From an uncultured Clostridia bacterium (lineage in GTDB: Bacteria > Bacillota > Clostridia > Christensenellales > Borkfalkiaceae), in the NCBI GenBank assembly GCA_947589285.1, contig CANPZV010000003.1, forward strand, positions 1 through 64,000: a DNA stretch of 64,000 bases. The letters are read 5' to 3'. Shown piece after piece: positions 18,092 to 23,198 of the stretch. Position numbers and translations under genes: made by a program. The notes beneath the pieces are model-generated. The model worked only from the letters and a program-made list of their open reading frames with translations, was not told where the DNA came from and did no database searches. Position 1 is the first letter of the stretch; each line of letters begins with the position of its first letter.

Positions 18092-18433
18092 TTACTCGTA
18101 TTCTCCGTAGTCCCTTCTGTCGCCGTAGCGCGGCGGCATGGGTGGAGGCGGGGGCGGAGGCGGCGGCGCGTCCCATCTCCCCCTCTTCTTTTCCGATTTG
18201 GGGGGTGCCTTGATGTCCACGAGAACGACGTCCACGCCGACCTTTTTGACGCACTTGAGATCGATGAAGAGGTCTGCCCTTCCCCAGCGAAAACCCTTTC
18301 CGCCGGGGACGACGATCCCCTGCACTCTCCCCTCGGGAAAGCTGATCACGATGTCGCAAACTTTCCCGAGCTGCTTGCCGTCAGAGAGGTTCACCGTCTC
18401 CATTTTTTTCAATTCCGAAAAACCGATGTCCAC
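18092..18433 (-). CDS. YlmC/YmxH family PRC-barrel protein with polyproline tail
   Basis: GFSELKKMETVNLSDGKQLGKVCDIVISFPEGRVQGIVVPG; C-terminal PPPPPPPPPMPP. Confidence 0.85.
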   Translation of the reverse strand: MDIGFSELKKMETVNLSDGKQLGKVCDIVISFPEGRVQGIVVPGGKGFRWGRADLFIDLKCVKKVGVDVVLVDIKAPPKSEKKRGRWDAPPPPPPPPPMPPRYGDRRDYGEYE

Positions 18434-18552: not shown

Positions 18553-19794
18553 ATGGGAAAAACAAAAGAAGGGCGTTCAAAGATCCCAAAGATCCTTCTG
18601 ATCGTCACTGCCGCCCTCCTCTTCGTCTGTGCGGCGGCCGCAGTGCTTTGGGGCTGCCTCGGGCTGTTCGGCTACGGCGTTCGGATCGTCATGTCCTCGT
18701 CGATGGAGAGCGGGACAAACGTCTCCGACGGCGGACGTATACGGGAGATCCGCAGGGGGAGCCTCATCGTCATGGAGCTTCTTCCGAGCGATGAGACCGC
18801 GCGGGAGGCCTTTTATTCGCAGATCCGCACGGGCGACGTTCTGACCTTTGAGTACAAGATCGCGGGCAAGAACGTTGAGGTCACGCACAGGGTGAAGGAG
18901 ATCGGCCGAAGCGGGGAGGGGTACCTCTTCGTCATGCAAGGCGACAACGGGCAACTCGCGGGGACGCAGACGATCGACACGGCCGCAGGCGGGGACCGCA
19001 TCGTCGGCAAGGTCGTCTATTGCAGTTTCGCGCTCGGCGTCCTCGTCTGTATTCTGCGCGATCCCCTCTTTCTCATCGGCATATGCGCCGTCTTTCTGTG
19101 CGCGGCGGCGTTCAAAAGGCGTCAAAAGAGGCCGCCAAAGGCGCGAAAGTCCCTCCGCGGTGGAGGGAAAATGAAAAAAAGGATAGTTGCAGTTCTTCTC
19201 GTGCTTGTCATCTGCTGTTTTGCGTTCACCGTCGGCGCAACGTACGCCCTGCTTGACGAGATGATCCCCATGCGGAGCCACCTCACCGCGGGTTCGCTCA
19301 AAGTGACCCTCGTGCGGCAGAGGCTCACCACAGTCAACATCGATGACAGCGGGGTCCTGAAAAGCATTGTGGACGAGGCAGACAAGGATTTTACCGCAGA
19401 CACGCAGGAGAATATTTTCGGGCTTGCAGATGGGATGACCGTCGTCCCCGGCAGCAGTTTTACCGCAGAAATGAACATCAAAAACGACGGCGACGTGGCG
19501 TTTTTTTACTATGTTGAAGTGTATTTCAACGCGATCGTGAGCGATACGACCTTTGCGTCGATGCTCAAACTCACGGCGGAATCGGAAAAGAACGTCAGAC
19601 AGGAGACGCTCATCAGGGACGGGCTGACATTGGGCGACGACGGGACGGGACTTGGCACGGTCGAAGCGGGCGGCGAAGAGAACTTTACCGTCAGGCTCGA
19701 ATTTCTCAGCGATGAAAACAACAACAAAGCGGAAGGAAAGTTCGTCCTGTTCGACCTCCGCGTCCATGCCGTCCAGATGATCGGTACGGAATAG
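18553..19794 (+). CDS. Fusion: SipW/ER-type signal peptidase I + TasA/CalY-like secreted protein
   Basis: One ORF: N-terminal TM, VMSSSMESG (Ser), VTHRVKEIG (His), C-terminal TM, KRRQKRPPKARKSLRGGGK linker, then MKKRIVAVLLVLVICCFAFTVGATYALLDE signal peptide and SHLTAGSLKVTL...VPGSSFTAEMNIKNDGDVAFFYYVEV. Confidence 0.85.
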   Translation: MGKTKEGRSKIPKILLIVTAALLFVCAAAAVLWGCLGLFGYGVRIVMSSSMESGTNVSDGGRIREIRRGSLIVMELLPSDETAREAFYSQIRTGDVLTFEYKIAGKNVEVTHRVKEIGRSGEGYLFVMQGDNGQLAGTQTIDTAAGGDRIVGKVVYCSFALGVLVCILRDPLFLIGICAVFLCAAAFKRRQKRPPKARKSLRGGGKMKKRIVAVLLVLVICCFAFTVGATYALLDEMIPMRSHLTAGSLKVTLVRQRLTTVNIDDSGVLKSIVDEADKDFTADTQENIFGLADGMTVVPGSSFTAEMNIKNDGDVAFFYYVEVYFNAIVSDTTFASMLKLTAESEKNVRQETLIRDGLTLGDDGTGLGTVEAGGEENFTVRLEFLSDENNNKAEGKFVLFDLRVHAVQMIGTE

Positions 19795-19837
19795 AGTTTC
19801 CGCAGTGCGGCGGGGCCTCGCCCCGCCGTGCTTTTTT

Positions 19838-20384: not shown

Positions 20385-20438
20385 AAAGAAAAGGCAACCC
20401 TGTGGGGTTGCCCTCTCTTTGGTGCGCCGTAAGGAACT
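20385..20438. repeat. Partial duplicate of tRNA-Arg 3' end plus its terminator
   Basis: 54 bp aaagaaaaggcaacc[c/t]tgtggggttgccctctctttggtgcgccgtaaggaact, one mismatch to 20535-20588. Confidence 0.9.
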
Positions 20439-20455
20439 ACTTCGTCGCTTCGCTC

Positions 20456-20498: not shown

Positions 20499-20540
20499 GA
20501 ATCCCGAAGGGATCCTCGCCCTTCGCAACACACCAAAGAA

Positions 20541-20562
20541 AAGGCAACCTTGTGGGGTTGCC
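20541..20562 (-). terminator. Terminator hairpin downstream of tRNA-Arg
   Basis: Minus strand GGCAACCCCACAAGGTTGCC followed by TTTTCTTT. Confidence 0.75.
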
Positions 20563-20569
20563 CTCTCTT

Positions 20570-20646
20570 TGGTGCGCCGTAAGGAACTCGAATCCCTAGC
20601 CTTTGGTTCCGTAGACCAACGCTCTATCCAATTGAGCTAACGGCGC
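20570..20646 (-). tRNA. tRNA-Arg (anticodon ACG), CCA encoded
   Basis: Reverse complement GCGCCGTTAGCTCAATTGGATAGAGCGTTGGTCTACGGAACCAAAGGCTAGGGATTCGAGTTCCTTACGGCGCACCA; 7-bp acceptor stem pairs. Confidence 0.95.
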
Positions 20647-20855
20647 GTATCTTCAATTACCCGACTATTATATCCCTATCCATGCGATTTGTCAACGATT
20701 TTTGCGGCTCCTTCAAAGATTTTTTCGCCGCTTTCGTGAAAGCACATTGCGTCCTTTCCCTCGATGATCCCAATCGCCCTTTTTCGGCGTTTTTCGACAA
20801 AATCAGACCTTTTTCTGCCCTCTGCGCCCTTTATAATGAGCCTACGGAGCGGCAA

Positions 20856-21692
20856 ATGGAAGTCTATGTGGAATATGCCTTTGCGGAAAATTTCATCCTC
20901 GACCTTCTCCTTATATTCCTCTCCGTAAAGTGTGCGCGGGCGGAGAGCGGCGCGTTCCGTCTCCCCCTCTCCGCGGCGGTGGGTGCAGCCGAAGCCGTCG
21001 CCTTTCCCCTCCTCCCCCTGCCCGTCTGGGCGGCCTATCTCGTCAAGTTCTTCGGCGGAGCCATTCTCCCCGTCCTTGCCGTGAAAAAGGGGACAAAAAA
21101 GACGTATTTCGTGGCCCTTGTCTCCTTTTTCGGCCTGACCTTCGCCCTCGGGGGGCTGCTGACGGCCGCCTATTCTTTCTTCAACGCGCCCTATGCGGAG
21201 GGGAACGGGTATCTCGTGGAGGCGGCTCCCGTCGGGCTTGTCTTGGGGCTTGCGGGGCTGTTCGGCGTCGCGGTGTTCTACCTCTCCCGCAGTCTCTACC
21301 GATACAGAAAACTCAAACGGTGTCTCTTTGCGGCGGAGCTGAGCAGCGGCGGCAGGACGGTGCATTGCAAGGCCTTGGCGGACACGGGGAACTGTCTCTC
21401 CTTCCGCGGCCGCCCCGTGAACGTCATCGCCCCGACGGCCGCCCTCGCCCTCTTCCGCGAAGAAAGATCTCCCCTCGGCAGGATCGCCCTCTCGACCGTG
21501 AGCGGGACGCGGGAAGCTCCCGTCTTTGCCTGCCGCCTCAAACTCGGCGACGCCCTCTTTGAGGAAGCCCTCTTTGCCGTGGGCGACGTCCTTTCCAAGG
21601 AATATCAGATCGTCCTGCATACATCCTATCTGGAGGAAAACCATGAAGCTCCTGAAAGCTCTGCAAAACTTGTTGCGGAAGATAAAAGGTGA
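20856..21692 (+). CDS. spoIIGA: Sigma-E processing peptidase SpoIIGA
   Basis: [21 protein letters not shown], five TMs, [10 protein letters not shown] aspartic-protease motif; directly upstream of sigE. Confidence 0.92.
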
Positions 21693-22350
21693 GAACGTCG
21701 TCCACTATCTGTGCGGGAGCGAGGCACTGCCCCTCCCCCTCTCGCAGGAGGAGGAGAGCGAAATGCTCGCAAAGCTCGAGAGCGGAACGGACGCCGAGCA
21801 GGTCCGCGCAAGTCTCATCGAACACAACCTGCGCCTCGTCGTATACATCTCCCGCAAGTTCGAAAACACGGGCGTGGAGGCCGACGACCTCATCTCTATC
21901 GGGACGATCGGTCTCATCAAGGCCATCAACTCCTTCCGCACGGACAAGAACATCAAACTCGCGACGTATGCCTCGCGCTGTATCGAGAACGAGATCCTGA
22001 TGTATCTGCGCCGCACGGTGAAACTAAAGAGCGAGATCTCCTTCGACGAACCCCTCAACACCGATTTCGAGGGGAATGAACTGCTCCTCTCCGACGTCCT
22101 CGGCACGGACAGCGACACCGTTTACGGGGGCGTGGAGTCGAGCGTCGAGAAGGAACTCCTCAAAGAGGCCCTGATGAAGCTCCCCGACAGGGAGAGGAAG
22201 ATCATGTACATGCGGTTCGGCCTCGGCGGGCAGGAGGAGATGACGCAGAAGGACGTGGCCGACGCGCTCGGCATCTCGCAGAGCTACATCTCCCGCCTCG
22301 AAAAGAAGATCATCGAGCGGCTGAAAAAGGAGATCTCCAAACTCGTATAA
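21643..22350 (+). CDS. sigE: RNA polymerase sporulation sigma factor SigE
   Basis: [38 protein letters not shown]...; sigma-70 regions 2-4; SD GGAGG. Confidence 0.94.
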
Positions 22351-22424
22351 TTTTTTCGGGAAATACAGATACTTTTGTCTCCGAACGGTCTACATAGGGA
22401 CTGAGGTCCTTACGGAGGTGAAAG

Positions 22425-23198
22425 ATGTTAAGTAAAGTCGTGATCTGCGGCGTCGATACGACGGGTCTGCCCAAGCTCTCCGCAAAGGAGATGAGCGAGC
22501 TGATGATCCAGCTCAAGGCGGGCGACGAGGCCGCGCGGGAGAAGTTCATCATCGGGAATATGCGCCTTGTCCTCTCCCTCGTCAAACGGTTCTGGGCGAA
22601 GAATGCCAACGCCGACGACGTGTTTCAGGCGGGCTGCGTGGGGCTGATCAAGGCCATCGACAACTTCAATTTGGATTTCAACGTGAAGTTCTCCACCTAC
22701 GCCGTCCCCATGATCCTCGGCGAGATCAAGCGGTACCTGCGGGACGGGAATTCTCTCCGCGTCTCCCGCTCCATCCGTGATACGGCCTACCGCATCCTCA
22801 AAGTCAGGGAGAGCATCGAGGAGCGGGACGAGGAGGCCACGATCGAGAAGATCGCCGCCGAAATGCAGGTGAAGGAGAGTGAGGTCGTCTACGCGCTCGA
22901 CGCCATCTCCGATCCCGTCTCCCTCTATGAGCCGATCTACAACAAGTCGGGCGACACGCTCGAGCTTTTGGACCAGCTCTATGACGAGACGCAGAGCGAC
23001 GAGATCTGGACGGAGCATGTCGCCCTGCGCGAGGCCATCAACCGCCTGACAGACAGGGAGAAAAAGATCCTCATGCTCCGCTACTACGAGGGCAAGACGC
23101 AGACGGAGATCTCTGCGGAGGTCGGTATCTCGCAGGCGCAGGTCTCCCGCCTCGAAAAGAACGCCCTCGCGTCGGTCAGGAAGGAGATCTCGCTGTAA
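22425..23198 (+). CDS. sigG: RNA polymerase sporulation sigma factor SigG
   Basis: KVVICGVDTTGLPKLSAKEMSELM...; spoIIGA-sigE-sigG order; SD GGAGG. Confidence 0.94.
   Translation: MLSKVVICGVDTTGLPKLSAKEMSELMIQLKAGDEAAREKFIIGNMRLVLSLVKRFWAKNANADDVFQAGCVGLIKAIDNFNLDFNVKFSTYAVPMILGEIKRYLRDGNSLRVSRSIRDTAYRILKVRESIEERDEEATIEKIAAEMQVKESEVVYALDAISDPVSLYEPIYNKSGDTLELLDQLYDETQSDEIWTEHVALREAINRLTDREKKILMLRYYEGKTQTEISAEVGISQAQVSRLEKNALASVRKEISL

Follow-up and report, generated by a model that had tools for sequence, protein, structure and literature searches.

In Bacillus subtilis, the genes of the SipW-TasA/TapA system are separate. The window analysed here, a 64,000-nucleotide stretch of contig CANPZV010000003.1 from an uncultured Clostridia bacterium, holds a frame of 413 codons (18553–19794, + strand), in which a SipW-like signal peptidase is joined to its probable substrate. 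This raises the question of whether the fusion is genuine and, if so, how an enzyme and a substrate can both be made from one frame. SipW of B. subtilis, a signal peptidase of the ER (Ser/His) type, is dedicated to TasA; the Escherichia coli signal peptidase I, LepB, processes the TasA cleavage site poorly (PMC10269814). In Clostridium perfringens, sipW and bsaA share a bicistronic message, and SipW is needed for secretion and polymerisation of the matrix protein (PMC7395162); these too are separate genes, within a larger operon that includes a two-component system, with no fusion. Searches of open-access papers, judged mostly by title and abstract, returned no bacterial signal peptidase joined to the substrate that it cuts.

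The frame is open from ATG to TAG, as the initial annotation had claimed, and is the sole copy in the window's genome. It begins with a SipW-like signal peptidase of the ER type, which takes up the first 187 or so codons; a basic linker and a second signal peptide come next, and a TasA/camelysin-like domain ends the protein (Table 1).

Table 1. Features of the fused gene and its surroundings, in window coordinates.
Feature	Position	Strand	Evidence
N-terminal half: ER-type (Ser/His) SipW-like signal peptidase and basic cytosolic linker	18553..19170	+	profile matches, invariant residues
Basic linker KRRQKRPPKARKSLRGGGK, residues 188–206, predicted cytosolic	19114..19170	+	loop charge +12; dN/dS 0.87
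Hairpin TCCCTCCG-CGG-TGGAGGGA; 3' arm is the Shine-Dalgarno sequence of the internal start	19150..19168	+	26/26 loci
Internal ATG, putative start of stand-alone substrate	19171..19173	+	ATG in 26/26 loci
Second signal peptide MKKRIVAVLLVLVICCFAFTVGATYA	19171..19248	+	hydropathy peak 211–229; TYA↓LLDE position
C-terminal half: TasA/camelysin-like secreted protein, predicted	19171..19794	+	PF12389 in 6/26 homologues, not window copy
Probable intrinsic terminator	19804..19832	+	13-pair stem, then T run

The peptidase half had been annotated as SipW/ER-type. Its Ser motif, MSSSME, occupies residues 47–52 and its THR motif residues 111–113; S50 and H112 are invariant across 26 homologues, as are D95 and G130, and all 26 match the TIGR02228 and SipW models. 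The window copy, however, scored E 6.3e-09 (35.9 bits) against TIGR02228 and E 1.2e-08 (34.8 bits) against NF046067, below the curated cut-offs of 51.85 and 190, respectively. The similarity is clear, and because of these scores the window peptidase is filed here as a divergent subfamily, SipW-like rather than SipW. A sequence search of the PDB with this half returned weak SEC11 matches only. A Pfam 7tm_1 match (5.6e-06), below cut-off and spanning hydrophobic segments, was discarded. In one split relative (G031; locus L070, 4374–5006) the peptidase reads GANG in place of the GDNG or GDSG of nearly all others, and it lies on a long branch of the tree; this enzyme may be losing activity.

Hydropathy analysis placed a first transmembrane segment at about residues 14–32, a hydrophobic pair at 150–168 and 170–188, and the second signal peptide at 211–229. 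The net charge of the loop preceding the second signal peptide is +12 in the window, and the fused homologues have a positive loop as well (that of G219 was not isolated by the script). The topology first proposed for the fusion, with a positive, predicted cytosolic linker ahead of the second signal peptide, is thus workable.

For the substrate half, the TasA/CalY-type assignment made earlier has support from part of the homologues: PF12389 (camelysin/TasA) matches six of the 26 homologues (best 7.1e-07), but the window copy has no match and falls below the TasA family cut-offs. The model of the SipW-dependent signal peptide, TIGR04088, had no match in the window's genome at E up to 1, and the sequence GATYA↓LLDE resembles a SipW-dependent site by eye only; its P2' residue is Leu, whereas that of TasA is aromatic. 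Cleavage is predicted after residue 232, by resemblance to TasA-type sites. No match was obtained in a PDB sequence search with the substrate half, and a structure model built from two sequences (mean pLDDT 41) was too poor for use. One peptidase and one substrate of these kinds were found per genome in 25 of the 26 genomes, weak partial matches aside; the count of a single substrate ignores one marginal short match, and further substrates of the SipW type were sought in the window's genome by profile only. That the C-terminal half is the substrate of the N-terminal one we infer from three features: their adjacency, their single copy number and a signal peptide of the SipW type. Genome G240 carries, besides its fused gene, a second, distant peptidase/substrate pair (L078, G240:C20) that is separated and has an open Shine-Dalgarno (SD) sequence with no hairpin.

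The comparison covered 398 genomes of the family. Besides the window, 16 genomes of the same genus carry the fusion at full length and without a stop, at 48–80% identity to the window, giving 17 fused genomes from separate genome bins. The nearest, assembled independently, is a Clostridia bin whose sample is named Lapin; it shares 80% identity with the window over the full length. In nine genomes the two halves are separate genes that touch or overlap, while in distant relatives the two genes lie 430–770 nt apart. A frame length suggestive of fusion in G200 resolved into two genes rather than one open frame, and this candidate was rejected. Elsewhere in the order, none of the 16 loci fetched for their long TIGR02228 frames, among the matches listed, had a joined substrate; the ones interpreted as peptidases have an extension at the N- or C-terminus in its place. 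In five order-level relatives (L088–L092; G707, G641, G650, G667 and G584) the ER-type signal peptidase has a charged C-terminal extension of ∼400 residues past the last membrane segment, with no substrate domain.

Joining of two genes by an assembly or sequencing error would fit one observation: the SD-ATG spacers of the window and of the split relative G247 differ by one A, within a short run of A at the junction. The junction of G234 is identical in length to that of the window, and the same fusion recurs in the 16 independent homologues. A missed indel, or a want of fused relatives, had been named beforehand as what would refute the fusion; this explanation clearly fails, and we regard its probability as negligible.

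The internal ATG, at residue 207 (MKKRIV...), is preceded by the SD sequence GGTGGAGGGAAA, which in the window sits within the hairpin CCCTCCGCGGTGGAGGG. A second start here had been suspected from the SD alone; SD, spacing and ATG are all kept in 26 of 26 loci, across all reading phases and in all 17 fused genes, and the hairpin, unseen earlier, is equally general. The SD (GAGGG, GGAGG or, in G227, GGGGG) lies in the 3' arm of a stem of 5–8 bp with a loop of 3–6 nt in every locus, and stem pairs are exchanged between clades, for example CCCTCC/GGAGGG against CCCTCT/AGAGGG. Stems were read locus by locus; a consensus fold of the ungapped alignment undercounts them, as loop lengths vary. The last 30 nt before the start had a mean folding energy of −10.4 kcal/mol, compared with −3.3 kcal/mol at 110 further starts that have an SD in this DNA, of which the strongest 5% were at −8.5 kcal/mol or below. 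The hairpin also folds in a 90-nt context, where its region is only 1.8 sd more stable than shuffles. Distant split relatives have an open, A-rich SD with no hairpin where the start could be placed, three of the nine rows being uninformative (no ATG found, or one placed inside the signal peptide).

What varies at the junction is the phase of the upstream frame. It runs in phase and open into the substrate in 17 of the 26 loci; it ends at a stop 11 nt beyond the ATG in five, at a stop in the hairpin 11 nt upstream of the ATG in three, and in a 4-nt ATGA overlap in one. The split +1 junctions, such as L069 3958–4000, consist of an SD-like element, an A-rich run and the stop 11 nt past the ATG. 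Such an arrangement could favour recoding, by which split relatives would also make some fusion, the ribosome shifting frame or slipping on the A-rich spacer between SD and ATG; the fusion would then be the functional form shared by all. The run is short, however, and the other split loci, which stop ahead of the ATG or at ATGA, have no such run; recoding therefore seems to us very improbable.

Selection was estimated in the fused clade of 14 members. The linker had a dN/dS of 0.87, and the values of the two domains were 0.24 and 0.19. In the seven hairpin/SD codons pS was 0.116, compared with 0.415 and 0.387 in the peptidase and substrate cores, and dN/dS was 0.92; for synonymous constraint this stretch ranked 17 of 422, the lowest stretches being mostly the gene's own 5' start. 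Because synonymous change is low at the hairpin and SD while the linker evolves at a dN/dS near that of neutrality, the constraint is, as judged from these rates, on RNA and not on protein. This bears on a reading in which the internal start survives as a relic and the fusion, cleaved in cis by the attached peptidase, supplies all of the substrate at a fixed 1:1 ratio. The open frame conserved over a deep clade of fused genes and the workable topology would both fit such a polyprotein, but a relic would hardly keep SD, spacing and ATG in 17 of 17 fused genes together with the synonymous slowing, and we consider it improbable that the fusion is the sole source of substrate. As for the frame itself, no stop was seen in the linker where 2.4–2.9 were expected (P 0.06–0.09), and the large fused clade has three indels in the linker, each a multiple of three in length. 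These observations weakly suggest selection to keep the frame open across the linker.

A tree was built on the two domains, with the linker and junction left out. Fused and split states were separated by at least four changes of state, and a single fused clade, and with it a single origin read in that way, was rejected (p-AU 1e-44). With the split outgroups, the simplest account would be three fusions (in the window and G234, in G233 and in the large clade) and one later split, in the lineage of G229, which seems to have separated its genes again. One early fusion with several later splits could also account for the pattern, at the cost of more changes. Since fused and split orthologues alternate, the linker is nearly neutral and the RNA start signal is constrained, the comparison suggests that translational coupling is the primary conserved feature and fusion a recurrent, tolerated and possibly useful outcome.

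Alternatively, the same pattern might reflect near-neutral drift of phase, in which selection acts on coupling, the phase in which the peptidase end crosses the junction shifts freely, and a fusion protein of no consequence results whenever that phase is zero. The occurrence of all phases among the 26 relatives with hairpin and ATG unchanged, the dN/dS of the linker and the apparent reversion in G229 would be expected if this were so. On the other hand, peptidase ribosomes in fused genomes all make the fusion, which would be rare only if internal starts dominate; 17 of the 26 loci are fused; and in the large fused clade linker indels keep the frame and no stop has arisen. Moreover, sbcD-sbcC, an overlapping gene pair taken as a control in these genomes, was never fused (same frame in 0 of 23), although this is one pair rather than a survey and its 4-nt ATGA overlap carries its own stop. 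We therefore consider drift with an inconsequential fusion protein rather unlikely.

We favour instead, with a probability of roughly 0.6, a dedicated pair of one enzyme and one substrate, coupled through RNA unfolding and expressed in fused genomes as a polyprotein plus free substrate; internal initiation and processing are the steps that we infer. Ribosomes would be able to bind the SD in the hairpin only as long as translation of the peptidase keeps the hairpin open. In the 17 fused genomes each ribosome starting at the peptidase makes, as read directly from the frame, a peptidase-linker-substrate polyprotein, and extra ribosomes entering at the internal ATG would make free pre-substrate, as conservation of that start suggests. 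The polyprotein is predicted to thread with its N-terminus in, the peptidase out, a second transmembrane segment, the basic linker in, the second signal peptide and then the substrate out. The cut beyond the second signal peptide, at TYA, could be made in cis, by the active site of the same chain, in trans, by that of a neighbouring one, or in both ways. Cleavage would leave mature products no different from those of the split genes, which would explain why fusion has been tolerated and repeated. In a more specific form, which we hold only tentatively, the polyprotein would free its only substrate at the membrane, partly in cis, the hairpin-gated start would set an excess of substrate over enzyme with no stop codon between the two, and fused and split forms would be interchangeable because processing leads back to identical products.

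Separation of a membrane polyprotein at an internal signal peptide has a precedent in the cytochrome b/c1 polyprotein of Bradyrhizobium (fbcH), which is cut there by signal peptidase. In that case the peptidase is a separate enzyme, whereas here peptidase and substrate share one chain, with the peptidase at its N-terminus. The present locus differs from the SipW-TasA/TapA system of B. subtilis in having one substrate, in the fused or overlapping arrangement and in the hairpin over the SD. Coupling by RNA unfolding, in which upstream translation opens structure over a downstream ribosome-binding site, is an established model (PMC12548453), and the stems found in all 26 loci, which include the SD and are reachable by upstream ribosomes, resemble it. 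The fused genes differ in having no upstream stop, so that termination-reinitiation is ruled out as a means of coupling and unfolding is the only route left. The 26 fused and split orthologues are thus a natural experiment on translational coupling. If internal starts still work in the fused members, they would speak directly for the RNA-unfolding model, and a fused enzyme that can undo the fusion offers a plausible route to a nearly harmless gene fusion.

The fused gene is flanked by a YlmC/YmxH sporulation gene (18092–18433, − strand) and by spoIIGA-sigE-sigG (20682–23198, + strand). The fused loci of the window and G234 and the split loci of G247 and G031 have ylmC and upstream neighbours in common, and spoIIGA-sigE-sigG lies downstream in those of the four whose contig reaches that far. 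Because of these shared neighbours, the four loci represent one ancestral site. Among the loci fetched, the ylmC/spoIIGA site was found only in these four genomes of the window's subclade. No sigma-70-like promoter was found at the fusion locus. The terminator just past the stop probably closes a one-gene transcription unit; terminator-like sites numbered 1.7 in shuffles, so that this one is weak taken alone. Further downstream, a near-identical stretch (AAAGGCAACC..GTTGCCCTCTCTTTGGTGCGCCGTAAGGAACT) occurs twice, at 20390–20440 and 20540–20590, beside a tRNA-Arg gene (20570–20646), and looks as if it were a duplicated tRNA 3' end.
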